Source: Nitrosomonas nitrosa
Lineage (GTDB): Bacteria > Pseudomonadota > Gammaproteobacteria > Burkholderiales > Nitrosomonadaceae
Length of the DNA stretch: 64,000 bases
Assembly (NCBI RefSeq): GCF_003051105.1
Contig: NZ_QAOO01000009.1
Location: 1-64,000, forward strand
Direction of reading: 5' to 3'
The notes below the pieces were generated by a model. The model saw nothing but the letters and a program-made list of their open reading frames with translations, searched no databases and had not been told where the DNA came from. Made by a program: the position numbers and the translations under genes. This document shows positions 3,200 through 18,302 of this stretch, in pieces (position 1 is the first letter of the stretch; the number at the start of each line of letters is the position of its first letter).

Positions 3200-3970
3200 T
3201 TATTCGAGCTTTTCTGTTTCATCTTCACCATTAAACTCGAAGCTCTCATCTGCCGGTGGGCTACCGTCATAAACCAAATTCTGACGGCGTTGTAAATAAG
3301 CATCGCGTACAAATTCGTATTTATCCAGGGCTGCTTCTTCCAATGTCTTGTCCGTATCGAGCATTTGAGCACGCGTATCAATCGCCCATCCAACTGAAGC
3401 AGGAAATCGAACAGTCAGAAAATCAAAATCAGGATAGATCGACCAGATTGGATGAAAAATAGAACTGTCCACCGCAATACCTACAGCGTCACGTATCGTA
3501 CTCGGACCTAAGAAAGGTAATACAAGATAGGGTCCCGGGCCAATGCCATAACGGCCAAGTGTTTGGCCAAAATCTTCATTACGTTTACTTATGTCGATAT
3601 CACTCACGGCGCTGATATCACTCGCAAGATCGATAATTCCAAACAAGCCAAATGTCGAGTTAATTACGACACGTGTTGCGCTAGCTGCCGCATCATCGAA
3701 CTTGAGCTGCAGCAAAGCATTGGCCGTAATCACGACATCGCCAAAGTTTGAAAAAACATTACCAATTATCATTTCGAGCGGATCCGGTACAATCGCTCGA
3801 TACCCCCTAGCGACTGGCTCCAGTACAAAATCATCCACTTTTTCATTAAATGCAAATACTGCTCGGTTCATTGATTCTAAAGGATCTCTCCGATTCTCGA
3901 CCGAAGCACAACCAATCAGCATATACCCTAATAACATCAAAACCAGAAATCTATAGCGATATAAGATCAT
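3200..3970 (-). CDS. mlaA: MlaA (VacJ) family phospholipid-transport lipoprotein
   Basis: The 256-residue lipoprotein has a signal sequence ending in a lipobox (LIGC, cysteine at about residue 21) and the family hallmarks: ESMNRAVFAFNEKVDDF, an FFxNFGD-like NVFSNFGD segment and an RYGIGPGPYLVLPFLGPS block. MlaA is the outer-membrane part of the Mla pathway that returns mislocalised phospholipids from the outer leaflet. The acidic C-terminal tail is not conserved in the family. It stands alone here, without mlaBCDEF, and forms the left border of the island. Confidence 0.9.
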   Translation of the reverse strand: MILYRYRFLVLMLLGYMLIGCASVENRRDPLESMNRAVFAFNEKVDDFVLEPVARGYRAIVPDPLEMIIGNVFSNFGDVVITANALLQLKFDDAAASATRVVINSTFGLFGIIDLASDISAVSDIDISKRNEDFGQTLGRYGIGPGPYLVLPFLGPSTIRDAVGIAVDSSIFHPIWSIYPDFDFLTVRFPASVGWAIDTRAQMLDTDKTLEEAALDKYEFVRDAYLQRRQNLVYDGSPPADESFEFNGEDETEKLE

Positions 3971-4211
3971 TTTACGTCTATTGTTTTTATTTGCGAACGG
4001 GGCATCTTGCCATATTTACGTATTTGCGACAACCTAATGATCACCTCTAAATTCGCGATTACCTTTTCTGATTTGTCTCACGCGATCAGGCGGTTGACGC
4101 GGAATACACGATTTTTCGTACAAACTAGCTTATTGAACCGGGGTTGGAGTTTCGAGCCATTTTTAGATAATCAAAGACAACCCGAGTATTTAGCGGACAT
4201 TTTTCGTCATC

Positions 4212-4394
4212 TCAGGAGAATTGTTTCGCTTTGCTTCTTGTTTTTTGTCTGCCCTGATCATCAAGCGCACTGCACATAGTTTTTCCGTCAATAGCTAGGA
4301 GAGGCTCATCCAAATAGACTGATTGACTGCATACGAGCCTGGTTGGCCGGATTTTCCGATCCTTTTCGTTAAATAGAACGGCTATTCGTCTCAA
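4212..4394 (-). pseudogene. Probable transposase fragment (ISAs1-like)
   Basis: This 60-codon open stretch contains PLLAIDGKTMCSALDDQGRQ, which resembles the conserved AIDGKT strand carrying the first catalytic Asp of ISAs1-type transposases. Nothing on either side continues the protein, so it is at most a relic. The match rests on one short motif, so confidence is low. Sequence from 3971 to 4211 shows no recognisable gene. Confidence 0.35.
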
Positions 4395-4579
4395 TTGATC
4401 GAAAAATCCAACTCAATCAATCTCATCCTCGCTACATCGCTATTCTCGGCCAGTCTTACCTAACTCATAATGATGCGGTGTTTCATACTGAATTGGATGC
4501 CACGATACGAATCATCAGTGCGCGTCTAATGACAAAGCAAGAGAAAAAGGTTTATGAAGAAGACCAAGGTAAAAGATGA
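4382..4579 (+). pseudogene. C-terminal remnant of a BrnT-type toxin
   Basis: Read in frame from 4382, the sequence gives RYIAILGQSY, then TIRIISARLMTKQEKKVYEE and a stop at 4577-4579. RYIAIG, then (T)IRIISAR..T..E...YEE is the conserved C-terminal half of BrnT (PF04365), a RelE-fold ribonuclease toxin. There is no start codon or N-terminal half, and no recognisable BrnA follows. The gene is therefore decayed. The interval 4580-4801 holds no gene that I can support. Confidence 0.5.
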
Positions 4580-4801
4580 ACTTAATCATAATCTTGCAAA
4601 AAACTGTCAAGTGAGCAACTTGCAAAATTTAGGGATTAAGCAGAATTACTGGTTTGAACAGCCAACAAAAGCAAGATAGCCTGTCCATAAGTGATAAAGC
4701 TGAGTTATCAGAAACACAAAAATCATTAACAAATGAAAAGATTCCGGATGCCGGGAGCTGAGTGACATACCCGATTTGATCTAATACTCAAATGCCAGAT
4801 T

Positions 4802-5104
4802 CTAAATAAGCGCTTCTTTCTGTGATTGCCACGGATGAATTTTACGAATTTTATTGCCTAGCGCGGTTTTAGCTTTATCAAGCTCATAGGCTTTTTGCAG
4901 GTTTAACCAAAGCTCAGGGCCGGTGCCAAAGAACTGTCCTAACCGCAAAGCAGTATCTGCTGTTAAATCCCGTTTGCCACGAATAATCTGTGAGATACGG
5001 TTTGGTGGCACATCAATTTGCCGCGCAAGCTCAGTGCGCGTCATACCAATTTCCGTTAATTCATCAGCGAGAAATTCGCCGGGGTGAATAGCTTCTCTAA
5101 CCAT
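4802..5104 (-). CDS. higA: HigA-type antitoxin, XRE family
   Basis: The 100-residue protein begins with the HigA signature IHPGEFLADELTEIGMT and has a helix-turn-helix over residues about 20-60 (ELARQIDVPPNRISQIIRGKRD). The TADTALRLGQFFGTGPELWLNLQ block is characteristic of HigA/VapI antidotes. It should neutralise the toxin encoded 26 bp upstream and repress the shared promoter. As in other higBA loci, the toxin gene comes first. The gene closes the pair on the minus strand next to remnants of another toxin system. Confidence 0.93.
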   Translation of the reverse strand: MVREAIHPGEFLADELTEIGMTRTELARQIDVPPNRISQIIRGKRDLTADTALRLGQFFGTGPELWLNLQKAYELDKAKTALGNKIRKIHPWQSQKEALI

Positions 5105-5130
5105 CTTTGTTTACCTTTTCATAGACTGTT

Positions 5131-5406
5131 TCAGTGATAATCCACGATTTCCACATCAATTGCGCCTTCGTCCCACATAAAATACACGCGCCATTGTTGA
5201 TTGATACGAATACTGTATTGTCCCACTCTATCGCCGGATAAGCGTTCAAAGCAATTGCTGGGTAATGCAACCAACGCTTCCAGCGTAATGGCGGCATCCA
5301 GTATTCGGAGACGCTTTTCCGCTTGGCGTTTAAAGCTGGAAAACGCCGCAACATGCTGACCGTCAAAGAGGCGCTGGGTTTTCCGGCATTTAAAGCTCTT
5401 TATCAT
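5131..5406 (-). CDS. higB: HigB-type toxin, RelE/ParE superfamily
   Basis: The protein begins MIKSFKCRKTQRLFDGQ and contains ERLSGDRVGQYSIRINQQWR and an EIVDYH C-terminus, the fingerprint of HigB ribosome-dependent mRNA interferases. I chose the ATG at 5404-5406 (91 residues), because the five extra upstream codons lie inside the operator palindrome and do not match the family. The basic residues expected for RNA cleavage are present, so the toxin is likely active. The stop is 26 bp from higA. Confidence 0.93.
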   Translation of the reverse strand: MIKSFKCRKTQRLFDGQHVAAFSSFKRQAEKRLRILDAAITLEALVALPSNCFERLSGDRVGQYSIRINQQWRVYFMWDEGAIDVEIVDYH

Positions 5407-5415
5407 TCTTAACCC

Positions 5416-5434
5416 TAACACGCATGACGTGTTA
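5416..5434. promoter_or_regulatory. Palindromic operator upstream of higBA
   Basis: A perfect 7-bp inverted repeat with a 5-bp spacer (TAACACG-CATGA-CGTGTTA) begins 10 bp upstream of the higB ATG. Its position and symmetry suit autoregulation by the HigA dimer. Two overlapping TTGACG hexamers on the minus strand just upstream could supply the -35 element. The remaining gap up to 5577 shows nothing else. Confidence 0.6.
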
Positions 5435-5577
5435 CGTCAATCGTCAATATGATACGATAATTAAAATCAAGTTTAAGGGGACGGTGATTTACTAACTATG
5501 ATAATGAAACTCTATATTATCCGATGGTTGGAGAAATAAATTATTGAAATATAAAATTTGTCCTGAGATGCGAAGGG

Positions 5578-6471
5578 TTAAGATAATTCTTCAAAAAACA
5601 TCGTCTTTTCATGCAGATTGCAAACAACCCTACCTGTTTTTTCTTTTCGCATTTTCCTCCACACCACAAAGCCAGTAAGAATTGCTTGTTCCCATTGTTT
5701 AGGTGTAGCCTTCTTGACTTCAAGGTGTCTTGTTAATTGCCTGATTGTATGTAGTAATTGTTCATCTATCGTTTGAATTCCATCGTAAAAATTATGATTT
5801 CTAGCGTGTTCAAATACCAGTGCAGAAATTGCTTCATCAATTACAATAGCTCTTCCACCATCTTCTATTTCATTTATTAAATCATTGCTTCGCCTTTTTT
5901 TGTGCATTAATGCTCTGGCAGTGGGCGACCAGCCGAGTACAGTCACGTACGAGAAATGAAACAGGTCATGATATCTGTAGTAATCGTCTTCGTAGTGGTT
6001 ATCACGAATTGGGTCGCCAAATTTTTGCCCGTTAATGAATATTTCAACACATTCTTTTCCATTGTTATCGACCCCTTCGTTAAACTCCGCTACGAATTCC
6101 CTAGGAAACTGCTCTGTCTCTTCAAATCCGTCATCAAAAAATTCACCTCCAAGGTTTAGCTGACCTTCGCTATGTAGATCAATCCACCTTTCTTTGGTTT
6201 TTTTCAGGTTGTATTCTAGAATTTCTGAGAGAGGAATTTTTTCTATAGTTGCAATTGATGTGAGATACCAAATGATATCGCCCAGTTCTTCCATTATTTT
6301 TTCACGAAAGATCGCGTAGCTGTCTCCATCACGTATTTTTTTCTTATATTCAGTAGATAAACCTCCAACTTCTCCATTGAGGCCAAGCATTACAATTGAA
6401 AGCGCCTTTTCGTGATCTTTATTGAATTGCATCGTCTCAGCAGCTTCAGCCTGATACTCATCTGCATTCAT
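5578..6471 (-). CDS. MazG-like nucleotide pyrophosphohydrolase with a unique C-terminal domain
   Basis: Residues about 20-95 form an all-alpha NTP pyrophosphohydrolase domain. It has GLNGEVGGLSTEYKKKIRDGD (Glu34, Glu41) and a second helix EELGDIIWYL with the metal-binding ExxD (Glu62, Asp65). The usual second acidic residue of the first ExxE is Gly37, a possible weakening. The C-terminal 200 residues, including an HDLFHFSYVTVLGWSPTARAL segment, are not recognised but look globular and rich in His and acidic residues. MazG enzymes hydrolyse (d)NTPs or modified nucleotides to monophosphates. It is the last gene of the six-gene operon, overlapping the previous gene by 14 bp. Confidence 0.75.
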   Translation of the reverse strand: MNADEYQAEAAETMQFNKDHEKALSIVMLGLNGEVGGLSTEYKKKIRDGDSYAIFREKIMEELGDIIWYLTSIATIEKIPLSEILEYNLKKTKERWIDLHSEGQLNLGGEFFDDGFEETEQFPREFVAEFNEGVDNNGKECVEIFINGQKFGDPIRDNHYEDDYYRYHDLFHFSYVTVLGWSPTARALMHKKRRSNDLINEIEDGGRAIVIDEAISALVFEHARNHNFYDGIQTIDEQLLHTIRQLTRHLEVKKATPKQWEQAILTGFVVWRKMRKEKTGRVVCNLHEKTMFFEELS

Positions 6472-7465
6472 CTTTTACTCCTAATTGGATTTTCCATTTG
6501 GGGGGGAAAAAATATCTGATTGGTTCAGGATTCTGTTTAAAGCGCTGCTTAATGCGTGTTCTTCCAGAAAAACCGGATAGATTTGGATGCGCAACACGAC
6601 AGTATTTATCTACTTCACAAAAAATATTTTGTATATCTATATACTGTAACGGACGATTTCCGATTTTTTTAAAGTCAAGCCCTAGTCGTTCGAATTCTAG
6701 TTCTTGCCTATCCGTCATCATTTTGATGATATCCGTTTCCGATAAGCCACCAAGCTTAGAAAAGCATTTCTTGATTCCGTCCCTAGCTCCCGGCCCGGGA
6801 ATAGTAAATTCTGTTTCGTTAAAGTCGATTAGGTCACTATAGTTCAGGTCAGTCACGTATTGGTATGCTAGAAATCTGCCGATTAAAGGGTAATCAAGAA
6901 GTAATGCATATGCTTGCATCATCTTTTTGCATGATGCTACTTTGTCTGCCAAATTTTCATCTAGCATTCTCTTTAAAAGAATTAGATGCGCATGATGCTT
7001 TCTTGTTACATTAAATTCTTTACATCCAGAGGCCATCATATAAGCGTTCGAATACAATGTCCTGCCACTGTTCATTTCACTGTCTAGAAAAGTTCTAAAA
7101 GAATCCAAATTAAAATTATCGACATTTAGATCGCCAAATTTATTTTCCAATAACTGCCATGTCTCAATTTTGTTAAAAAGCTTGAACAATATCACTCTGA
7201 ACAAAATATCATTTGCTGTACGTTTGTTACAGTTCTGGTAGATTACGTTTTTTATTAGATACTGGCTTACTCTGTCACATGCCCGATACACATTGGTAAA
7301 CTTGAATTCTTGAATTATTGAATCTTTTGTAAATGGAGGGTTTTCAACTTTAAGTCGCGCAAAAAATACGTTTTGTCGTTCGTAAGCGAATCTCCAGAAA
7401 GTGTCATATGCTATTGTAGGCTTGGCGGGATCGAGTTTAATAATAATATCAGTCTGTTTCGACAT
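6458..7465 (-). CDS. Protein with 5-hmdU DNA kinase helical domain (thymine-hypermodification-type fold)
   Basis: The 335-residue protein carries TFWRFAYERQ (residues 22-31), FTNVYRACDRVSQYL (56-70), LFRVILFKLFNKIETW (88-103) and, near the C-terminus, HPNLSGFSGRTR. This pattern recalls the helical domain shared by phage 5-hydroxymethyl-dU DNA kinases and the alpha-glutamyl/putrescinyl thymine pyrophosphorylases (HMUDK_hel/aGPT-Pplase group), a helix-hairpin-helix glycosylase-like fold acting on hypermodified thymine. No P-loop kinase domain is attached. It overlaps the thymidylate-synthase-like gene upstream by 17 bp and the MazG gene downstream by 14 bp. I recognise the domain from memory of motifs, and the bacterial role is unknown. 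Confidence 0.7.
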   Translation of the reverse strand: MSKQTDIIIKLDPAKPTIAYDTFWRFAYERQNVFFARLKVENPPFTKDSIIQEFKFTNVYRACDRVSQYLIKNVIYQNCNKRTANDILFRVILFKLFNKIETWQLLENKFGDLNVDNFNLDSFRTFLDSEMNSGRTLYSNAYMMASGCKEFNVTRKHHAHLILLKRMLDENLADKVASCKKMMQAYALLLDYPLIGRFLAYQYVTDLNYSDLIDFNETEFTIPGPGARDGIKKCFSKLGGLSETDIIKMMTDRQELEFERLGLDFKKIGNRPLQYIDIQNIFCEVDKYCRVAHPNLSGFSGRTRIKQRFKQNPEPIRYFFPPKWKIQLGVKDECR

Positions 7466-8207
7466 ATTTTCTATACTTATTTGTAAAATTTCTGGCTTCA
7501 GTTTTATTCATTCTCCCCAGTTCAAGTACACTAGCGATACAATTGACTTCATCTAGCTCAAGCCCCATTTTACCGGCCATAAAATTCCCAAGATTTCGTA
7601 ACCCAACATAGTTACCATACCCTCTATTAGTAAGATGCTGCATGGCATATATAGCGTTGATAGTCATTTTTCCACTTTTTTTCGGAATAAAGCAGACCTG
7701 CTGTAAGCAAGGGAAGCCTCTCATTGTTTGGGATGTATGATCAATCGAAGGGTCGAATGTCAAAGCTATTAATGCGGAACGCCTATGCACAGGTTTTCTC
7801 ACGCCTTCTACACCGTTATATGTGTCTATAATATGCTTAAGCTGATTGATTGGTTGGCCGCTTGCCTCATTGAAAGCAATTAAACGTCTAAAGTAATGTC
7901 CATTTCTATTTTGTTTATCTTTTTTTACATGCTTCCAGATATTTTCAAAGCGTTCAAAGACTGTGCTCTGATCACCAGTAGCTAGGCTTTTCGGAAATAT
8001 CGTGCTGGCAGTTGTTTCAAATGAGTTCTGCCCTATACGTTTAAGAAACTCATTGAGATCATTTTCCAGTTCTTCTTGATAGTCAGGGACTGAATTGTTG
8101 ACAGCAAAATTCGCCACGAGTGGTGCAATTTCTGTACTCGCACTATCAGCTATAGCAATCAGTATTTTTAGCCAGCATTCTGTTATTGAATTTCCACGTA
8201 CAATCAT
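7449..8207 (-). CDS. Thymidylate synthase/hydroxymethylase-like protein
   Basis: The C-terminal half of this 252-residue protein aligns by eye with thymidylate synthases. FPCLQQVCF carries a candidate catalytic Cys167 in place of PPCH. It is followed by KMTINAIYAMQHLTNRGYGN, where TS has the QRSxDxxLGxPFN strand, with Asn199 as the nucleotide-discriminating residue, and then by a long helix. The first 80 residues do not resemble TS. Such proteins methylate or hydroxymethylate C5 of dUMP/dCMP; the substrate here is open. It overlaps the ImmA-like gene by 4 bp and the 5-hmdU kinase-domain gene by 17 bp. It is clearly not the housekeeping thyA, which would be about 264 residues with standard motifs. 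Confidence 0.65.
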   Translation of the reverse strand: MIVRGNSITECWLKILIAIADSASTEIAPLVANFAVNNSVPDYQEELENDLNEFLKRIGQNSFETTASTIFPKSLATGDQSTVFERFENIWKHVKKDKQNRNGHYFRRLIAFNEASGQPINQLKHIIDTYNGVEGVRKPVHRRSALIALTFDPSIDHTSQTMRGFPCLQQVCFIPKKSGKMTINAIYAMQHLTNRGYGNYVGLRNLGNFMAGKMGLELDEVNCIASVLELGRMNKTEARNFTNKYRKYVETD

Positions 8208-9034
8208 TCTTCCTCGTATTTGTATTGATAAAGCCCTTGGAACTTGTGTTGACTAGCTTTCAAAAAACAACTCCAATCCTCACTAAAAATACGCGTGATA
8301 CCAGGCGCCGTTGCCACATAAATAATTTGTTGGCTATTTGAAACATGCTTAAGAATTTGCGGCCCATCAACGGAAAGTGTTTTTGAGGATACGATATAGT
8401 CGCCGACTTCAAGCTCAATTGCTTTTTCGTCCCACCAATTTCCAATATTGAAAACTTGTGATTTCACTTCCAACCCACTAATAGAATGGCGTATATCCGA
8501 TAGTTTTGAAGAGATGAGTTTCTGATAGTGTCTATAAGGGATTAGTCGAAGATTTATGTATAAATGGGTTGCAAATGCCTGATATGAAACACCGAAATAT
8601 TTGGACAACGTATAAGCATCAACCGAAGTAATACTATCTGCGCTAATGCCATAGAGAAGTAATGTCCTATTTACAGCTGAAGATGGCATCAGAAGCATGC
8701 TTGCGAAGAAGTCAGCCTCTTGTTCTTCTTGTTTGTTGGACCCACACTCCAGAATTTCATCAATCACGGTGCCATGTTTAAGAACGTGATGTCCTATTTC
8801 ATGAGCACATGTGAATCGTTTGCGCCCCTCGGGCCTTTCAGCAGAAATTAAAATAAGATTTTTATTTGCAATATACATACCTTCAAAAGAAGGAATTTTT
8901 ATAAAACGAAGATCGAATCCCATCGCCTCACACAAAGAGTAAGGGCACACAGGTAGATGCGGATCAATACCCAAGAAGGTTTTTCTTGTTTTGAGCGCTT
9001 TAGCTGTAATTTGCGCTGCCCTAATTTTTTCCAT
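8204..9034 (-). CDS. ImmA/IrrE-family metallopeptidase
   Basis: The 276-residue protein has a zinc-peptidase motif HEIGH at residues 78-82, preceded by RKRFTCA, and a downstream Glu106 within EQEADFFASMLLMP, the ImmA/IrrE arrangement. The C-terminal 120 residues form a separate beta-rich domain of unknown function. Family members cleave a partner XRE repressor when a signal appears, as ImmA does with ImmR in ICEBs1 and IrrE/PprI does with DdrO. The XRE gene immediately upstream overlaps by 14 bp and is the likely partner. That would make this pair the switch of the operon, which is inference from context. Confidence 0.88.
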   Translation of the reverse strand: MEKIRAAQITAKALKTRKTFLGIDPHLPVCPYSLCEAMGFDLRFIKIPSFEGMYIANKNLILISAERPEGRKRFTCAHEIGHHVLKHGTVIDEILECGSNKQEEQEADFFASMLLMPSSAVNRTLLLYGISADSITSVDAYTLSKYFGVSYQAFATHLYINLRLIPYRHYQKLISSKLSDIRHSISGLEVKSQVFNIGNWWDEKAIELEVGDYIVSSKTLSVDGPQILKHVSNSQQIIYVATAPGITRIFSEDWSCFLKASQHKFQGLYQYKYEEE

Positions 9035-9362
9035 CCTTATTCTCCGAAGCCTTTATCATCTTAATGGTGTTAATCAAAGCTTCAATGTCCTCATCTTTCA
9101 TTGAACTTAGTTCACGGGCAGCAGCTAAGATAGACTGATCAATTTTATCTTCATTCACTTTTCCTTCAGTTATCCAAGTAATTTCAACACCGTACAAATT
9201 TGCCAGTTTGAGCAATTCATCAGATTTAACATTTCTACGGCCTGCTTCAATTTCACTAATAGTAGGGCGATGCATTCCAAGCCGTTTTGCTGCTTGTCCT
9301 TGAGAAAGCCCGGCCATTTCTCTAGCAGAACGAAGCCTATTGGCGATCTCCAGTTTACTCAT
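9021..9362 (-). CDS. XRE-family helix-turn-helix repressor
   Basis: Of 113 residues, the first 65 are a classic XRE domain: IANRLRSAREMAGLSQGQAAKRLG, then RPTISEIEAGRR as recognition helix and wing, then LLKLANLYGV. The C-terminal 45 residues form acidic helices that may dimerise or be the target of the neighbouring ImmA-like peptidase. It sits second in the operon, overlapping the carrier-protein gene by 4 bp and the peptidase gene by 14 bp. Two identical-spacing palindromes over the operon promoter are its probable operators. Confidence 0.9.
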   Translation of the reverse strand: MSKLEIANRLRSAREMAGLSQGQAAKRLGMHRPTISEIEAGRRNVKSDELLKLANLYGVEITWITEGKVNEDKIDQSILAAARELSSMKDEDIEALINTIKMIKASENKDGKN

Positions 9363-9640
9363 TTTGTTTTTTCCTTTGTAAATTGATATATTGATCTCAC
9401 CATTGACGAAACAGTAATATCTTCCAGATTAATATTTGAAAAAATTTTTTCAGGAGGTAATTCACATTCTATTTTTTCCTCAATGCTCATCAAGACTTCG
9501 ATAGCTCTGAGGCTATCAAAACCAGCTAGATCAGAAGCTGGCTTAGTGCTATTAGTGATGTCTGGGATCGACTCTCCTGATAGCTCAAGATTATCTCTAA
9601 GAGATTGAATTACAATATATTCCAATTCCTGTATAGTCAT
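9359..9640 (-). CDS. Acyl-carrier-protein-like protein
   Basis: This small acidic helical protein (93 residues from the ATG at 9638-9640) has DLAGFDSLRAIEVLMSIEEK. The GFDSL Ser is the standard site for 4'-phosphopantetheine, followed by the usual helix and an ELPPEKIF loop. I prefer this ATG over one four codons upstream because GGGGG precedes it at a suitable distance and the upstream start abuts the operator. It opens the operon. It is not the fatty-acid ACP, which would lie in a fab cluster. What is loaded on it is unknown, since no adenylating enzyme or ketosynthase is present nearby. Confidence 0.75.
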   Translation of the reverse strand: MTIQELEYIVIQSLRDNLELSGESIPDITNSTKPASDLAGFDSLRAIEVLMSIEEKIECELPPEKIFSNINLEDITVSSMVRSIYQFTKEKTK

Positions 9641-9655
9641 AATTTCCCCCATTTA

Positions 9656-9688
9656 TTACCAACGGTAAGAATATATTACCGGCGGTAA
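9656..9688. promoter_or_regulatory. Two tandem operator palindromes of the six-gene operon
   Basis: TTACC-AAC-GGTAA (9656-9668) and TTACC-GGC-GGTAA (9676-9688) have identical 5-bp arms and 3-bp spacers, and their centres are 20 bp apart, about two helical turns. That suits cooperative binding of two repressor dimers on one DNA face. The XRE protein encoded second in the operon is the obvious candidate. The second site overlaps the -10 element, and the first lies between it and the start codon. Confidence 0.72.
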
Positions 9689-9701
9689 TATATATTGTCA
9701 A
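9673..9701 (-). promoter_or_regulatory. Sigma-70-type promoter of the six-gene operon
   Basis: On the minus strand, TTGACA (9701-9696) is followed after exactly 17 bp by TAATAT (9678-9673), five of six matches to the -10 consensus. Transcription would begin near 9665, about 25 bp before the preferred ATG of the carrier-protein gene. A promoter this strong with operators on top of it implies the operon is normally held off and can be strongly derepressed. Confidence 0.75.
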
Positions 9702-10169
9702 GCTTCTAAATTTTTAGCTCATTGTTCTATTGGGAATGCTAGTGTTATGCAGGGATGAAAAATCAAAAGATGGCATCAACTCAGTATACGGCTGCTCGAG
9801 GGGATAGATAAAGGTTGTAAATTAATCTCTTTGAAGGGCGTTTTACGACTATTCATTTTTAATATGCGTATAGCAAAGGAAGACAATTCTTCCAAGCGGT
9901 GAGTGTGATAATACAGCGATACATTTTAATGGTGCATGAAGGCTCAATGCCGAATGCGCCACTATGCCGGGGGTATGCAACAGGGGCGCGCAGCGGGCCC
10001 CTTTGCCAAGATGGCGTCGTGCGGAAAAATCGAAGATTTTGTAGTACAACGCACAGCTTGCGTGTAACGGGAAGCGACGTAGGACAATAGCGTTTTGTAG
10101 CACAAAATGGAGACGCGACCAAACAAGACCCGTTTGATCGTTGCAATCATCGGCCAAAGACCAGAGAGC
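9702..10169. other. Gene-free junction region with clustered small palindromes
   Basis: No convincing gene is present. Short open frames on both strands lack ribosome-binding sites and family features. AT-rich sequence up to about 9880 changes abruptly to GC-rich sequence. Small inverted repeats cluster at 10039-10049 (TTGTAGTACAA), 10049-10063 (ACGCA/TGCGT) and 10093-10107 (TTTTGTAGCACAAAA). The first and third share TTGTAGyACAA. The IS3 element begins at the right edge. This may be the scar of another mobile element. Confidence 0.4.
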
Positions 10170-10228
10170 TGGTCCTACTTTGTTGGACAGATTTGCGGCG
10201 AAGTTAAGCTACAAATCGTTGGTTTATG

Positions 10229-11104
10229 TCATGCCGCTTGTCTTGTGTTTTGTTCCTCCGGGTGCAGGGCGTAGCCCAAGGCCGGAGGAACAAAATTTCG
10301 TCCATCATAAACCTCATCCGGCGTACGTCCATCAAAAGTTGAATGGGGCCGCTGCGCATTGTAAAACGCCAGCCAATGCCCGATTTCCCGCCTTGCCCGA
10401 AGGCCGTTATCAAAGGCGTTCAGATAGACGCACTCATATTTCAAAGACCGCCAGAGCCGCTCGATAAACACATTGTCCATCCACCTTCCTTTGCCATCCA
10501 TTGAGATTTTGATACCGTTTTCCTTCAAAAGCCCGGTAAATTCAAAGCTCGTGAACTGGCTGCCCTGATCGGTGTTGAAGATTTCCGGCCTGCCGTAGCG
10601 GGCCAGAGCCTCTTCCAGAGCCTCGACGCAAAAGCCTGTATCCATCGTGTTGGACAGACGCCAGGACAGCACCTTGCGGCTATACCAGTCCATAATCGCC
10701 ACCAGGTATAAAAAGCCTCTGCGTACCGGAATATAGGTAATATCCGCACACCAGACCTGACCCGGACGGGCAATATCCAGCCCTTTCAGCAAGTACGGAT
10801 AGATCTTGTGCCCGGGGTGCGGATCAGACGTGCGCGGCCTTTGATAAACCGCTTCAATCCCCATTTGCCGCATCAGCCTGCGCACACGGTGACGGCCAAC
10901 ATTATAACCCTGACGCCGTAAATGCCGCGCCATCTGACGGGAGCCGTAATACGGCGCAGCCAGAAACTGCTCGTCGATCAACCGCATCAGCTTTAAATTG
11001 AGCGGGGTCTCGCCCTTCGGATCGTAATACCAGCCAGACCGGCTGATCGATAGCAGGCAGCACTGCGCCGTGATGCTCAGATTGTCATTGCCCGGCTCTA
11101 CCAT
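10229..11104 (-). CDS. IS3-family transposase, OrfB (DDE catalytic part)
   Basis: The 291-residue integrase-fold protein has all three acidic residues in place: Asp in WCADITYI, Asp in [11 protein letters not shown] and Glu in [14 protein letters not shown]. An N-terminal HTH_21 region ([27 protein letters not shown]) precedes the catalytic core. OrfB alone is usually inactive; the functional transposase is the OrfAB fusion made by -1 frameshifting at 11146-11152. The frame remains open upstream of the ATG as far as that slip site, as expected. Confidence 0.93.
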
Positions 11105-11409
11105 TTCCTGACGCCTCCTAACCCCAACCGGCTGGAGGCATCTGCTAAAAAATCACGTTCCACCGTCAATTGCCCGATTTTTGCGTGGAGCGCTTTGACC
11201 TCTGCTTTATGATCCTTCTCCTGAACCTCCAGCTTACCGGAAAAGCCAGCCTCCATTGACGCCAGGGCTTCTTTCTTCCAACGGTGGATGACGTTCGCAT
11301 GCACGCCATAACGCGCCGACAGCTCCGCCACGCTCGCATCCTCGCGTAACGCCGCCAATGCCACCTGCGCTTTAAATTTTGCAGGGTAGTTCTTCCTTGT
11401 TTTGCTCAT
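11098..11409 (-). CDS. IS3-family transposase, OrfA (DNA-binding part)
   Basis: This 103-residue basic protein has a helix-turn-helix ([13 protein letters not shown], then [20 protein letters not shown]) followed by a leucine-zipper-like helix that ends ERDFLADAS, typical of OrfA in IS3 elements. It binds the terminal repeats. It overlaps OrfB by 7 bp, and the two frames differ by -1. The terminal residues after the slip site are unlike the family and would be replaced in the OrfAB fusion. Confidence 0.9.
11146..11152 (-). promoter_or_regulatory. Programmed -1 frameshift heptamer of the IS3 transposase
   Basis: On the minus strand the codons GAT TTT TTA of orfA present the heptamer T-TTT-TTA, which fits X-XXY-YYZ exactly in the zero frame. 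Slipping back one base enters the orfB frame, which is open from here to its own ATG, and gives the OrfAB fusion. Confidence 0.7.
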
Positions 11410-13348: not shown

Positions 13349-15103
13349 ATGCATCAACAATACCCCAACAATCAACCGCCACCCAGCCTGCTCATGGTTG
13401 CAGGCATAGCAGCCGGGCTGGTGTGGTGGTCGATGAACCTGAACCCGCCGCTGGTGAACGGTCAGATTGACGGTTTCTCGGCGCTGATACATTTTATGGC
13501 GGGACTGTTCTGTCTCCATACGGTTATTCGGCTGCTGGAAAATCTTTCGCACTTTATCGACTTTCTTTCCAGCCGCAGACCGATGGGACAACACGGCACT
13601 GCCGCATGGGCGAAAGTCAGGGACTACAAAAACGCACTAACCAAAAACAAACGCGGCCCATTCTGGGGGCGTGCGCTGGACGGTTCCCGGCCTGCTTTAT
13701 TCTTTGATTTCGTTAGTAATTCAATGACAGTCGCACCAGCAGGCTCCGGTAAAGGTATTTATACCGTTGTGACCAATATTATGAGTATCCGGCACAGCAA
13801 GGTCGTGGCTGATTTCAAGGGTGAGCTGGTCTGCATGTGCAAGGCCGCACTGGAAAAACGCGGCGAGATTGTGCGTGTCCTCAATCCCGGCAATCTGTGG
13901 CAGAACATTATCGGTCAAAGCGGTTCCTGCAATCCGCTCGATATTATCGCAGACGATCTCACGCGGCCCGGCGGTTTACGGGATGTAATGGACGATTTGC
14001 GGGAAATGGGTTCGCAAATCCTGCCCGAACCGGGTGACAAGGAAGGAGAAAATACCTACTTCCGCGAAGGCAGCCGCCGTCTCATTGCCGATGCAATTTT
14101 GTTTGAAGTCATGGTCGATTTGTATGACGCTACGCTGTCATCTGTGGCACTGCTCATCGAAAACCGCACCCGTCTGGAAGATATGGCGCGATGGGTGGCC
14201 GGAGTCGATATCGAAGACAAACTGCACCCGGACGGCCCGTTTCCGATTGAACATACCGAATGGGCAAAAGCGCATGATCCGCAGAATGTTGCAGAATTTG
14301 CCGCTCTAGTCAGAGCCAGAGCGAAAAACCTGATTGCACTTATGTCGGGCGGTGACAATCGTACATTCGATTCATTTATTACCGGCGCACAGCAGGCGCT
14401 TGCACCGTTTGCATTCGGCAGACTGGCCCCGGCCATGGGACGTTCGACGTTTCGCATGAGCGATCTTAAGGAAGGCAAGAAGCCGACAACATTATTTATC
14501 GTTGCGGACGCCAGCCGTATGGAAGCCTACAAGGCATTTGTCGGTCTGGTGCAATGGTGCTGTATGACGGCGGTAAAACGCCATGAAAACAAGGCACGGC
14601 CTGTCTGTTACATACTGGACGAAGCGACGAATTACAAAGTCAACGGGCTGGAAAATCTGCTCACATGGGGTCGTTCTTATGGGCTGCGTTTGCATTTAAT
14701 CTTTCAGGACTTGGCCGCATTTGAGCGCACTTACGGTAAGACCGCGCTTGATACCTTGTTAAGCGAGACGGAAATCAAGCAATTCCTGCCCGGGCAACGC
14801 TCGCCCAAAACACTGGAACTCATCTCAAAACAACTGCTCGGCGATCAATCCATGATGGCAATCGGCACCAGCCGTTCTGTCGATCAACCCGGTTTAAGCG
14901 AGAATTTGAGCGAAGCGGGCCGACCGCTCGCCACACCGGATGAAATCCGGCGCATGAAGGCAGGGATTCTGTTTGTACGCCAGCACCGCCCGATTGCGTT
15001 CGAGCCGGTGTCATACGCCGAGATCGAGCCGTGGCGCTCACAGGTCGGTATCAACCCGTTCCACGGCAAGCCCTTCAAGAAGAAAGTCAAAATCAGATTA
15101 TAG
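13349..15103 (+). CDS. Type IV coupling protein (VirD4/TraG family)
   Basis: The 584-residue protein has two N-terminal membrane helices (about 12-28 and 44-62), a Walker A APAGSGKG at residues about 129-136 and a Walker B region VCYILDEATNY. Further sequence includes DFKGELV and DPQNVAEFAALVRARA, typical of TraG/VirD4 ATPases. These hexamers bring the relaxosome to the mating channel and pump DNA. Length is near the lower end for the family. It is the only firm transfer gene in the remnant, and no relaxase lies beside it. Confidence 0.88.
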   Translation: MHQQYPNNQPPPSLLMVAGIAAGLVWWSMNLNPPLVNGQIDGFSALIHFMAGLFCLHTVIRLLENLSHFIDFLSSRRPMGQHGTAAWAKVRDYKNALTKNKRGPFWGRALDGSRPALFFDFVSNSMTVAPAGSGKGIYTVVTNIMSIRHSKVVADFKGELVCMCKAALEKRGEIVRVLNPGNLWQNIIGQSGSCNPLDIIADDLTRPGGLRDVMDDLREMGSQILPEPGDKEGENTYFREGSRRLIADAILFEVMVDLYDATLSSVALLIENRTRLEDMARWVAGVDIEDKLHPDGPFPIEHTEWAKAHDPQNVAEFAALVRARAKNLIALMSGGDNRTFDSFITGAQQALAPFAFGRLAPAMGRSTFRMSDLKEGKKPTTLFIVADASRMEAYKAFVGLVQWCCMTAVKRHENKARPVCYILDEATNYKVNGLENLLTWGRSYGLRLHLIFQDLAAFERTYGKTALDTLLSETEIKQFLPGQRSPKTLELISKQLLGDQSMMAIGTSRSVDQPGLSENLSEAGRPLATPDEIRRMKAGILFVRQHRPIAFEPVSYAEIEPWRSQVGINPFHGKPFKKKVKIRL

Positions 15104-16375: not shown

Positions 16376-16699
16376 ATGAACGACGAAACGACAACGCAGG
16401 AAAAAAGCAAACAGGAAGCCATACCCGTCCCGGTACTGGATGTCGATGCCTACCGCGCCGACTGGACGGATTTGGAATTAACCCCCGAACAGGAAAAAGA
16501 ACTCCTGCTGATCCTGTGGGACATGATGCGCACATTATGCGATCTCAATCTGGAAATGGATGCGGTGCAGATGATCATGCCGCCGTCATTGTACAAAGCC
16601 TTCAATGACGAAACCGATGAAAATTTGAACGAGGCGGAGCAGCAGCTCGATCAAAATACAGATATACAAACCAGCACAAGGAGCAAACCCAATGGATAA
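16376..16699 (+). CDS. Hypothetical acidic protein upstream of the integrase
   Basis: The protein has 107 residues, is strongly acidic and has a central helical section (LELTPEQEKELLLILWDMMRT) and a polar C-terminus. It overlaps the integrase start by 8 bp, so the two are translationally coupled. Small genes placed like this are often directionality or stability factors for the integrase, but no helix-turn-helix is visible and the function is unproven. Confidence 0.55.
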   Translation: MNDETTTQEKSKQEAIPVPVLDVDAYRADWTDLELTPEQEKELLLILWDMMRTLCDLNLEMDAVQMIMPPSLYKAFNDETDENLNEAEQQLDQNTDIQTSTRSKPNG

Positions 16700-18302
16700 A
16701 GCCGTGATTTATTGCCGGGTGTCCACCAAGCGGCAGACCAAGGCCGGAGACGGCCTTGCGTCGCAGGCCACGCGCTGCCGTGAATTTGCCCGCTACCGCA
16801 ATCTCGAAGTGATCGAGGTATTTCAGGATTCGCAATCCGGCTCGCTGATCGACCGGCCCGGCATGCAGGACATGCTTAAATTCCTGCGTGCGCACCGCAA
16901 AGACAATCTGACGGTGATCATCGACGATCTGAGCAGGCTTGCGCGTGGCATGGAAGCGCATATTCACCTGCGTACCGCAATTGCCGAAGTGGGTGCCAAG
17001 CTGGCTTCGCCCAGCATTGAATTTGGCGAAGATTCGGATTCCGTATTGGTGGAGCATCTGCTGGCCAGCGTCTCGCAGCACCACCGGCAGAAAAACGCCG
17101 AACAAACCCGTAACCGCCGCCGTGCGCGGATGCTGAACGGCTATTGGGTGCATTTTGCGCCGATTGGTTACAAATACGTCTCAAAACCCGGTCACGGCAA
17201 GGTGCTGGTGCGTGATGAGCCGCTGGCCAGCATTATCGCCGAAGGGCTGGAAGGGTACGCCAGCGGGCGCTTTCAGATCAGGGCGGAAGTCAAACGCTTC
17301 TTCGAACAGTTCCCGGAGTTTCCCAAAGACGCTAACGGCGAAGTCAAGAACGAGCAGATCAACCGGATATTCAGCCGGGTGATTTATGCCGGTCATATTC
17401 AATCGGATGTGATGGACGTATCGTTGCGTCCGGCGCAGAACGAACCGCTGATTTCGCTGGAAACGTTCCAGAAAATCCAGCAGCGCATGCAGGAAAAACC
17501 CAAGATACCCGCGCGTAAGGATTTGAACGAAGACTTCCCACTCAGGGGCGCGGTGCGGTGCTCTGATTGCGACAACCCGTTAACGGCCTGCTGGACGAAA
17601 GGGCGCAGCAAGCACTACCCCTATTATTACTGCTTTACCAAAAGCTGCGAGAGCTACGGCAAGGCTATTGCCCGCGAGAAAATCGAAGGGGAATTTGTCA
17701 GCCTGTTGCACAAGCTGGAGCCTTCCGCGCCGCTGTTCAAGACCGCGAGCAAGATGTTCGAGACATGGTGGCGTTACCGGCAGGCGCAAATTGAACAGCG
17801 CGGGCAATCGCTTGAACGTGAGATTCAGAAGCTGGACGGCAAAATAGAGCAATTGATGGACAGGCTGGTTGAAACGGACAGCGATTCGATGGTCAAGGCG
17901 TATGAGAACCGGATCAAGAAGCTTGAAACCGACAAGGCGGTACTCGTTGAAAAATCGTCTCAATCGCTGCGCCCGATGCGTTCTTACGATGCGGCACTTA
18001 GAACCGCGCTGGATTTTATCTCAAACCCGCATAAACTCTGGGATTCAGGGCGGCTGGACAACCGCCGCGCGGTGCTGAAACTCGCCTTTCCGGGTGGGTT
18101 TCAATACCATAGAAATACAGGACTTAGAACCGCTGAAACCCCATTACCTTTCAAGGTGTTAGGCATGCTTACAGATAAAAAAAATCATCTGGCGGAGAGA
18201 GAGGGATTCGAACCCTCGATAAGCTTTTTGAGCCTATACTCCCTTAGCAGGGGAGCGCCTTCGACCACTCGGCCATCTCTCCTCGAGAACCCGCAAGCAT
18301 AA
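16692..18302 (+). CDS. Large serine recombinase (site-specific integrase)
   Basis: The 536-residue protein begins with a resolvase catalytic domain (VIYCRVSTKRQ, nucleophile Ser11; conserved DDLSRLAR near residue 78). It is followed by the recombinase domain, a zinc ribbon (CSDC...C...C near residues 288-318) and a long coiled coil (about 358-420), the layout of large serine integrases. AAGGAG lies just ahead of the ATG. The last 37 residues (from AEREGFEPSI) are the antisense reading of the tRNA-Ser gene, so the C-terminus depends on the integrated state. The native end in the circular form would differ. Confidence 0.9.
   Translation: MDKAVIYCRVSTKRQTKAGDGLASQATRCREFARYRNLEVIEVFQDSQSGSLIDRPGMQDMLKFLRAHRKDNLTVIIDDLSRLARGMEAHIHLRTAIAEVGAKLASPSIEFGEDSDSVLVEHLLASVSQHHRQKNAEQTRNRRRARMLNGYWVHFAPIGYKYVSKPGHGKVLVRDEPLASIIAEGLEGYASGRFQIRAEVKRFFEQFPEFPKDANGEVKNEQINRIFSRVIYAGHIQSDVMDVSLRPAQNEPLISLETFQKIQQRMQEKPKIPARKDLNEDFPLRGAVRCSDCDNPLTACWTKGRSKHYPYYYCFTKSCESYGKAIAREKIEGEFVSLLHKLEPSAPLFKTASKMFETWWRYRQAQIEQRGQSLEREIQKLDGKIEQLMDRLVETDSDSMVKAYENRIKKLETDKAVLVEKSSQSLRPMRSYDAALRTALDFISNPHKLWDSGRLDNRRAVLKLAFPGGFQYHRNTGLRTAETPLPFKVLGMLTDKKNHLAEREGFEPSISFLSLYSLSRGAPSTTRPSLLENPQA
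18190..18282 (-). tRNA. tRNA-Ser (anticodon GCU)
   Basis: The 93-nt minus-strand gene has a 5' GGAGAGA acceptor strand pairing with a 3' TCTCTCC-G-CCA end. The anticodon GCT lies at 18248-18246 in loop CTGCTAA. It has a long variable arm, as expected for serine, and a TTCGAATCC T-loop. CCA is encoded. The integrase of the adjacent element reads straight through it in antisense, and the element lies on the 3' side of the tRNA, the usual layout when a tRNA gene is the attachment site. Confidence 0.95.

Follow-up and report, generated by a model that had tools for sequence, protein, structure and literature searches.

What does an operon do that joins a carrier protein, an XRE repressor and an ImmA/IrrE peptidase to a thymidylate synthase (TS)-like protein, an HMUDK_hel protein and a MazG-MazG_C protein? 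The question is raised by six minus-strand genes that run from position 9640 to position 5578 of a 64,000-nucleotide stretch of the Nitrosomonas nitrosa genome (contig NZ_QAOO01000009.1, positions 1 to 64,000), hereafter the window. Our answer is that the operon probably serves to make an altered DNA building block, and to process it, in conflict with phages or rival elements. We give about an even chance to the view that the whole is a mobile conflict system which is induced by stress, modifies pyrimidine nucleotides and is most likely aimed at phages, and we hold each single chemical step with less confidence than the whole. The parts belong to known families, and nucleotide-modifying conflict systems are a known kind. 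The argument starts from direct observations, namely the gene set, its conserved order, the operator-promoter architecture, a partner slot filled among plasmids by either HMUDK_hel or a uracil-DNA glycosylase (UDG), and a fold resemblance.

A Six-Gene Cassette with a Conserved Order

Successive genes overlap by 4, 14, 4, 17 and 14 bp with no gaps, exactly as an earlier note on this DNA had claimed, both in the list of open reading frames (ORFs) and in the sequence. The ATG at 9640 that the note took as the start of gene 1 is kept here as the most likely start, over the ORF start at 9652; GGGGGA stands in front of it. Profile matches bear out the note's family calls (carrier protein, XRE, ImmA/IrrE, TS-like, HMUDK_hel and MazG-MazG_C) and its placing of HigBA and an insertion sequence (IS) beside the operon, and base composition confirms the AT-rich codon use that it contrasted with the flanks: GC and third-position GC (GC3) are 0.377 and 0.327 in the operon versus 0.452 and 0.402 in eight flanking host genes, and versus 0.535 and 0.620 in three genes of a block at 11.6-18.3 kb. 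The two central genes, which the note allowed might prove to lie in unrelated families, do fall in the TS-like (gene 4) and HMUDK_hel (gene 5) families, and the gene set does co-occur at homologous loci, where the note had considered that the genes might never be found together.

These loci were found with HMUDK_hel, TS-like and MazG_C queries, on which co-occurrence is therefore conditional, and were annotated with profiles from annotated plasmids. Carrier, XRE, ImmA, in some cases a C1 peptidase, and TS-like genes lie on one strand in the same order at 24 of the 24 loci that have ImmA and TS-like genes and enough flank (the window, L007, L008, L010, L011, L013, L015, L019-L021, L024-L026, L032, L046, L049, L050, L052-L056, L058 and L066). 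For L054 the order is the annotated one; stop-to-stop ORFs sorted its first two genes otherwise. Outside the 24 are L022 and L047, which are cut by contig ends, and the order count also leaves aside L051, with a TS-like gene and neither carrier nor ImmA, and L029, where a helix-turn-helix-M78 fusion protein lies near HMUDK_hel and no TS-like match was obtained. The order occurs on plasmids and other mobile elements, with beta-, gamma- and alphaproteobacteria, cyanobacteria, Streptomyces and Haloarcula among its hosts, and because it recurs in other phyla the operon is not a chance assembly. Near-copies exist among the plasmids (five sphingomonad records, L015/L056 and L010/L011). The HMUDK_hel, UDG and MazG_C genes lie either on the same strand as the cassette or on the opposite one, a variation that sets them off as a second arm.

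Probable Repressor Control of the Operon

Gene 2 (9021-9362, minus strand) encodes an XRE repressor of 113 aa (HTH_3, 62.7 bits against a cut-off of 23) and gene 3 (8204-9034, minus strand) an ImmA/IrrE (M78) metallopeptidase of 276 aa with a HEIGH motif (Peptidase_M78, PF06114, 64.2 bits against 22). Their best PADLOC models are capH (7e-12) and capP (6e-22), respectively. A sigma-70-type promoter, TTGACA-N17-TAATAT (9673-9701, minus strand), is the top-scoring site (10/12) in a scan of 4000-10300; that scan gave 12 sites versus 17.0 expected, so the promoter site alone is weak evidence. Two predicted operators of the form TTACC-N3-GGTAA accompany it. Operator 1 (9676-9688) lies in the middle of a 23-bp palindrome extending into the -10 element, and operator 2 (9656-9668) lies just past the -10 side of the promoter. 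This pattern has exactly two matches in the 64 kb, where 0.03 are expected, and none of 100 shuffles held two.

Nine of 12 loci of the window's type, the window included, have related half-sites, defined as TTAC-N5-GTAA or GTAA-N5..7-TTAC, no more than 120 bp from the carrier gene; L025, L015 and L056 lack them. The shuffle mean was 0.096 and the maximum 2, the shuffles being simple dinucleotide-block ones and the test taking in 12 of 14 window-type (type-A) loci and 10 of 11 loci with a C1 peptidase. Cyanobacterial and rhizobial plasmids are among the loci that bear such half-sites, which were seen at none of the 10 C1-type loci. Half-sites shared in front of the carrier gene mark it as the first gene of a repressor-controlled transcript and no stray neighbour. 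The earlier note's description of the operon as regulated is thus well supported, by the promoter, the operators and an XRE-ImmA pair that best matches the capH and capP models.

The window shares with the CapH-CapP and DdrO-PprI pairs an XRE protein and an M78 peptidase, and of the features of CapH-CapP-type regulation it has the XRE with a HEXXH peptidase and an operator over the promoter. It differs from those pairs in that Pfam finds no GAF-like domain in the window ImmA, and in a sister form of the cassette described below the C-terminal domain of ImmA is chagasin-like. Single-stranded DNA (ssDNA) activates PprI and CapP, leading to repressor cleavage, according to PMC10904395, and by analogy the same trigger could act on the window operon. 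The XRE protein would keep the operon off, and ImmA, switched on by a damage or infection signal such as the ssDNA of its relatives, would cleave it.

The Thymidylate Synthase-Like Protein and the Carrier

Gene 4 (7449-8207, minus strand) encodes a divergent TS-like protein of 252 aa that has no Pfam match, PF00303 included. Its best profile is the methanogen TS model TIGR03283 (2e-10, 40.5 bits, far under the curated cut-off of 174.55), and BLAST against ThyA reaches E 3 at best. Aligned with E. coli ThyA by hhalign, the gene 4 family gives a weak match (probability 64%, E 6.5e-5), and hmmsearch against solved TS structures returns the same register, with E 0.2-1.1 and TS in 17 of 19 rows. 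The family's matches to solved structures are themselves weak (E 0.16-0.92), and the single gene 4 sequence has no match among them. In this register Cys167 aligns with ThyA Cys146, the nucleophilic Cys, and Asn199 with ThyA Asn177, the pyrimidine-reading Asn; both are invariant in 16 of 16 homologues. At ThyA Asp169, the folate-binding Asp, all 11 rows, judged by eye along the weak hhalign alignment, carry H, Q, F or Y instead. Retention of the Cys and the Asn with loss of the folate Asp fits an enzyme that still activates C5 of uracil, perhaps with another donor. A role for gene 4 as the housekeeping TS was considered and rejected, since a separate ThyA with 69% identity to the E. coli enzyme is encoded in the genome. 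In two other loci the TS-like gene is split over two frames (L013, 3642-4503; L058, 7524-8325).

Gene order by itself makes the carrier protein a candidate donor for the TS-like enzyme. Gene 1 (9359-9640, minus strand) encodes 93 aa with a PP-binding domain (PF00550, 30.1 bits against a Pfam cut-off of 20.8) and an FDS motif whose attachment Ser is kept in all 22 homologues inspected by eye. In one scan none of six homologues reached the PP-binding cut-off; the L020 carrier does, with 24.8 bits. The carrier may bear phosphopantetheine. Phosphopantetheinyl transferase (PPTase) genes lie in or beside six cassettes, where they adjoin the carrier gene (L013, L019, L054 and L055) or lie at the far cassette end (L010 and L011). 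At L051 (324-3037) a TS-like gene lies with MazG_C and with a UDG that is joined to a SocA/Panacea-like domain. This locus favours a TS-like enzyme, MazG_C and a base enzyme as the core of the system, of which it may be a minimal form.

An HMUDK_hel Protein That Alternates with Uracil-DNA Glycosylase

Gene 5 (6458-7465, minus strand) encodes a protein of 335 aa with a strong HMUDK_hel match (PF18723, 351.8 bits against a cut-off of 25, 3.6e-105). The Pfam name suggests a kinase, which gene 5 alone is unlikely to be given that Pfam and a motif scan find neither a Walker A motif nor a kinase domain in it. Among 32 HMUDK_hel ORFs a Walker A is present in one, L025, within a fused thymidylate kinase domain. 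That gene (6212-7969), a thymidylate kinase domain joined to HMUDK_hel, lies in a cassette on an IMG/VR contig. A kinase role for gene 5 by itself was rejected on the missing P-loop.

An AlphaFold2 model of gene 5, built from 12 sequences, is confident (pLDDT 89.3, pTM 0.86). VIA-align places at the top the human queuine salvage enzyme DUF2419 (Z 10.7, 5.8 A over 240 residues) and also returns the 5-PmdU glycinyltransferase (PUGT) of phage PaMx11 (Z 10.1, 3.8 A over 214) and helix-hairpin-helix (HhH) glycosylases (Z 8.0-9.2), values to be read with the caution that Z near 10 can be common among helical folds. Viral structure matches of the model are the helical domains of kinases acting on 5-hydroxymethyldeoxyuridine (5-hmdU) in DNA, that of SP10 among them, and aGPT-Pplases. 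A sequence search of the Protein Data Bank (PDB) with HMUDK_hel gave nothing convincing. As modelled, gene 5 may have a base-acting, glycosylase-type fold. It shares the HMUDK_hel domain and fold with the phage enzymes of thymine hypermodification (HMUDK, aGPT-Pplase and amino acid:DNA transferases such as PUGT), from which it differs in having no P-loop kinase domain and in belonging to a bacterial cassette with XRE-ImmA and a carrier.

Among 34 plasmid records with a tblastn match to gene 6 (our MazG_C plasmids), a UDG gene lies within 6 kb in 23, HMUDK_hel in 9, neither in 2, and both in none. Of 45 plasmid records with UDG, 26 were used in this pairing and the remaining 19 are not among the 34. 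In 18 plasmid records with a TS-like gene, UDG stands beside it in 11, HMUDK_hel in 7 and both in none, and a gene-6 match is beside the TS-like gene in 17. Mapped onto an ImmA tree covering 25 loci, the HMUDK_hel/UDG label must change at least twice, and a single UDG clade is not firmly rejected (approximately unbiased test, p 0.069). Beyond the cassette the same choice recurs: L009 combines HMUDK_hel-MazG_C with a patatin-like phospholipase, a ThsB-type TIR protein and Nmad2, and L061 combines MazG_C-UDG with an annotated phospholipase, TIRs, Nmad2, SLOG and ThsA. The slot is most simply read as one in which HMUDK_hel does work comparable to that of UDG.

For the earlier note, which had called gene 5 a 5-hmdU-kinase-domain gene, the outcome is divided. 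The HMUDK_hel domain is there, whereas the kinase P-loop is missing and the model resembles a glycosylase-type fold; the sister systems, with a UDG in its place, likewise correct the link to a kinase. The note's proposal that the operon makes or removes a modified pyrimidine nucleotide or base is a plausible hypothesis. Should our reading be right, there would be reason to recast bacterial "nucleotide kinase domain" proteins of the HMUDK_hel family as base-acting enzymes. HMUDK_hel is rare among relatives (6 of 199). In L045 (6878-8685), from a different genome of the same genus as the window, it follows a dCTP-deaminase-like gene, with no cassette nearby.

The MazG-MazG_C Protein

Gene 6 (5578-6471, minus strand) encodes 297 aa with a clear MazG_C match (PF18722, 242.2 bits against a cut-off of 29.7, 4.2e-72) and a marginal MazG match (PF03819, 22.1 bits against 22, 1.8e-4). 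PDB matches of the MazG part are dCTP pyrophosphatase 1 and other small pyrophosphohydrolases. In a sample of the phylum, MazG_C was found in 4 of 398 genomes, and the cassette in all four of these. In the reading that we favour, genes 5 and 6 would act on an altered uracil nucleotide, in the pool and in DNA, probably as the protective arm. A large metallophosphoesterase gene recurs beside MazG_C-UDG (L054, L057, L058 and L059).

A Sister Form with an Extra Peptidase

In 11 loci a papain-like C1 peptidase follows ImmA (L013, L019, L024, L049, L050, L052-L055, L058 and L066). All 11 ImmA proteins of these loci have a C-terminal chagasin (I42) domain, eight above the Pfam cut-off and three below it (L055, L013 and L050); I42 was not detected in any of the 10 ImmA proteins tested from loci lacking the C1 gene (L008, L011, L020 and L056 being left out). 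The C-terminal part of gene 3 has no I42 match. On the ImmA tree the C1/I42 pairing is a single change, and it is accordingly an association of one clade and not a replicated one. I42 proteins are expected to inhibit papain-like C1 peptidases. This arrangement suggests that in the sister form ImmA and the adjoining peptidase are held together as inhibitor and peptidase, a regulatory idea that can be checked by itself, and that the window form lost, or never had, this layer.

The loci that combine UDG with the C1 peptidase (L049, L050, L052-L055, L058 and L066) resemble the window in the carrier, XRE, ImmA, TS-like gene and UDG-or-HMUDK_hel slot, with MazG_C in seven of eight (none was found near L055). 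They differ from it in having UDG for HMUDK_hel, the extra papain-like peptidase, an ImmA with I42, and partner genes on the opposite strand.

Relation to Known Defence Systems

From these genes a defence function appears likely. Pyrimidine enzymes recur near homologous loci, namely dCTP deaminase genes (L010, L013, L053 and L055) and a dTMP kinase gene adjacent in L019 and fused in L025. Defence genes found as neighbours are Lamassu LmuB-like ATPases, at L010, L011 and the MazG_C-UDG locus L059, and two Thoeris genes at MazG_C loci, ThsA at L061 and ThsB at L009; these defence neighbours were hand-picked by annotation, and the 5 of 10 with a relevant match are not a statistical result. Burroughs et al. 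2015 reportedly predicted nucleotide-centric conflict systems, and the association of Nmad2, SLOG, TIR, MazG_C and UDG that such systems bring to mind is seen here in L061.

Among validated E. coli defence systems, DefensePredictor lists a TS domain and a 5-hmdU kinase domain, and units with these domains cut phage plating or plaque size in E. coli (PMC13092281). The same source has MazG and MazG-C as predicted defence domains that await validation and names UDG in the legend of its predicted-systems figure; "acyl carrier" and "ImmA" do not occur in its main text (PMC13092281). These domains place such systems among the closest known to the window operon (PMC13092281). The earlier statement that no characterised system has exactly this gene set consequently stands with the caveat that TS and 5-hmdU kinase domains have been validated in E. 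coli defence (PMC13092281). The literature searched, outside which lay the likeliest sources, Burroughs 2015 and Iyer 2013, describes neither a carrier-XRE-ImmA-TS cassette, nor a choice between HMUDK_hel and UDG, nor an ImmA-I42 protein paired with a C1 peptidase.

A Proposed Mechanism and Its Alternatives

Once the repressor is cleaved, the TS-like enzyme would bind a uracil nucleotide through the usual Cys adduct and alter its C5, and the carrier protein would present the donor group to it as a thioester. MazG-MazG_C would act on the nucleotide pool, and HMUDK_hel (or UDG) would act on the base in DNA or in a nucleotide. This last step would be one of finishing or, more likely, clearing the altered base, such that the host survives and phage replication is poisoned. 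In its most specific form the scheme would be a new sort of inducible defence chemistry: through the Cys adduct, a folate-independent TS-like enzyme would move an acyl or aminoacyl group from a dedicated holo-carrier onto C5 of a uracil nucleotide, the product would be the poison, and the pool and the host DNA would be cleared of it by an immunity arm of MazG-MazG_C and a glycosylase-type enzyme, for which HMUDK_hel and UDG are interchangeable. In such detail we regard the scheme as quite unlikely, and L051, where no carrier was found, lowers its probability a little. A conflict system of this general kind would account for several loose facts: the presence of TS-like and HMUDK_hel domains in bacterial defence, the pairing of MazG_C in the plasmids seen with UDG or HMUDK_hel but never with both, and the carrier protein, in some cases accompanied by a PPTase of its own, that travels with TS-like, HMUDK_hel and MazG_C genes. 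If right, it would place a testable defence chemistry at the nucleotide pool.

Several points weigh against such a conflict system, beyond the cautions on Z scores and hand-picked neighbours given above. Both the defence role and the chemistry are what we infer from the genes. Pfam profiles find no adenylation or acyl-loading enzyme in the operon, and no carrier, XRE or ImmA was found at L051, from which it follows that the TS-like enzyme need not depend on a carrier. Foldseek of the gene 5 model against the PDB is weak (best E 0.094), and the gene 6 model is poor (pLDDT 52). HMUDK_hel is not bound to the cassette: of 21 plasmid records that have it, 12 are without a gene-6 match and 14 without a TS-like gene, and two of the four HMUDK_hel-positive genomes of the window's genus (L044 and L045) have no cassette. 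Finally, PHROG 229 aligns over the whole of gene 6 (2e-34) and cassettes occur on four IMG/VR contigs, which together leave room for viral carriage.

These last two observations also speak for the alternative that fares best, in which the operon hypermodifies and thereby marks the mobile element's own DNA, as in thymine-hypermodifying phages, with no attack on an invader. HMUDK_hel and TS homologues belong to phage thymine hypermodification, and fold searches rank the phage PUGT and the SP10 5-hmdU DNA kinase. We nevertheless consider such marking unlikely, in view of a window protein without a P-loop (recall the single Walker A among 32 HMUDK_hel ORFs), an operon without a further transfer enzyme, and phage data in which none of 50,697 records has a TS-like match at E 1e-3 and none of 186 phage matches covers 80% of gene 6. 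The UDG that replaces HMUDK_hel in the sister systems would moreover remove a base, not place one.

A modified nucleotide could instead serve as a second messenger for effectors encoded nearby, in the manner of CBASS or Thoeris. The proteins encoded beside HMUDK_hel-MazG_C in L009 (patatin-like phospholipase, ThsB TIR and Nmad2) and beside MazG_C-UDG in L061 (annotated phospholipase, TIRs, Nmad2, SLOG and ThsA) are of the sort that signalling would call for. The six-gene cassette itself, however, has no effector recognisable by Pfam, and none is annotated in the stretches at L007, L008, L015, L052 and L053, which makes signalling quite unlikely for the window.

Sanitation of the host nucleotide pool, a housekeeping task and no conflict, is suggested by MazG and UDG being sanitising families and by the dCTP-deaminase-like gene that accompanies HMUDK_hel in L045. 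The rare and patchy distribution given above for HMUDK_hel among relatives and for MazG_C in the phylum sample, the location in an AT-rich island and the separate ThyA of the genome argue otherwise, and we rate it very unlikely. Most improbable is an ImmR/ImmA-type regulatory cassette of a mobile element with unrelated metabolic passengers. XRE-ImmA pairs do control many mobile elements, and HigBA, an IS, a type IV secretion system (T4SS) coupling protein and a serine recombinase are nearby, yet the same enzymes recur in the same order across phyla behind an operator shared in front of the carrier gene.

Genomic Setting

The conflict system that we favour would be mobile, and its surroundings contain further elements that lie outside the system itself. 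Downstream of the operon is a HigBA toxin-antitoxin pair (4802-5421, minus strand; HigB 50.5 bits against a cut-off of 27, HigA 93.6 against 47.7), and upstream of it an IS3-like transposase pair (10229-11409, minus strand; rve, HTH_21 and HTH_Tnp_1). The left edge of the island was not found, the flanks in the three closest relatives (by the MlaA flank) being on separate draft contigs. A simple tRNA-Ser att repeat was considered for the island and rejected, there being no 11-mer common to 18141-18300 and 3901-5000. A Nitrosomonas metagenome-assembled genome has the TS-like gene as two contig-end pieces with 97% and 92% identity. Past the IS3-like pair, a block with genes for a T4SS coupling protein (13349-15103) and a large serine recombinase (16692-18302) is the remains of an integrative element, and the 3' end of the recombinase gene overlaps a tRNA-Ser gene (18190-18282, minus strand).

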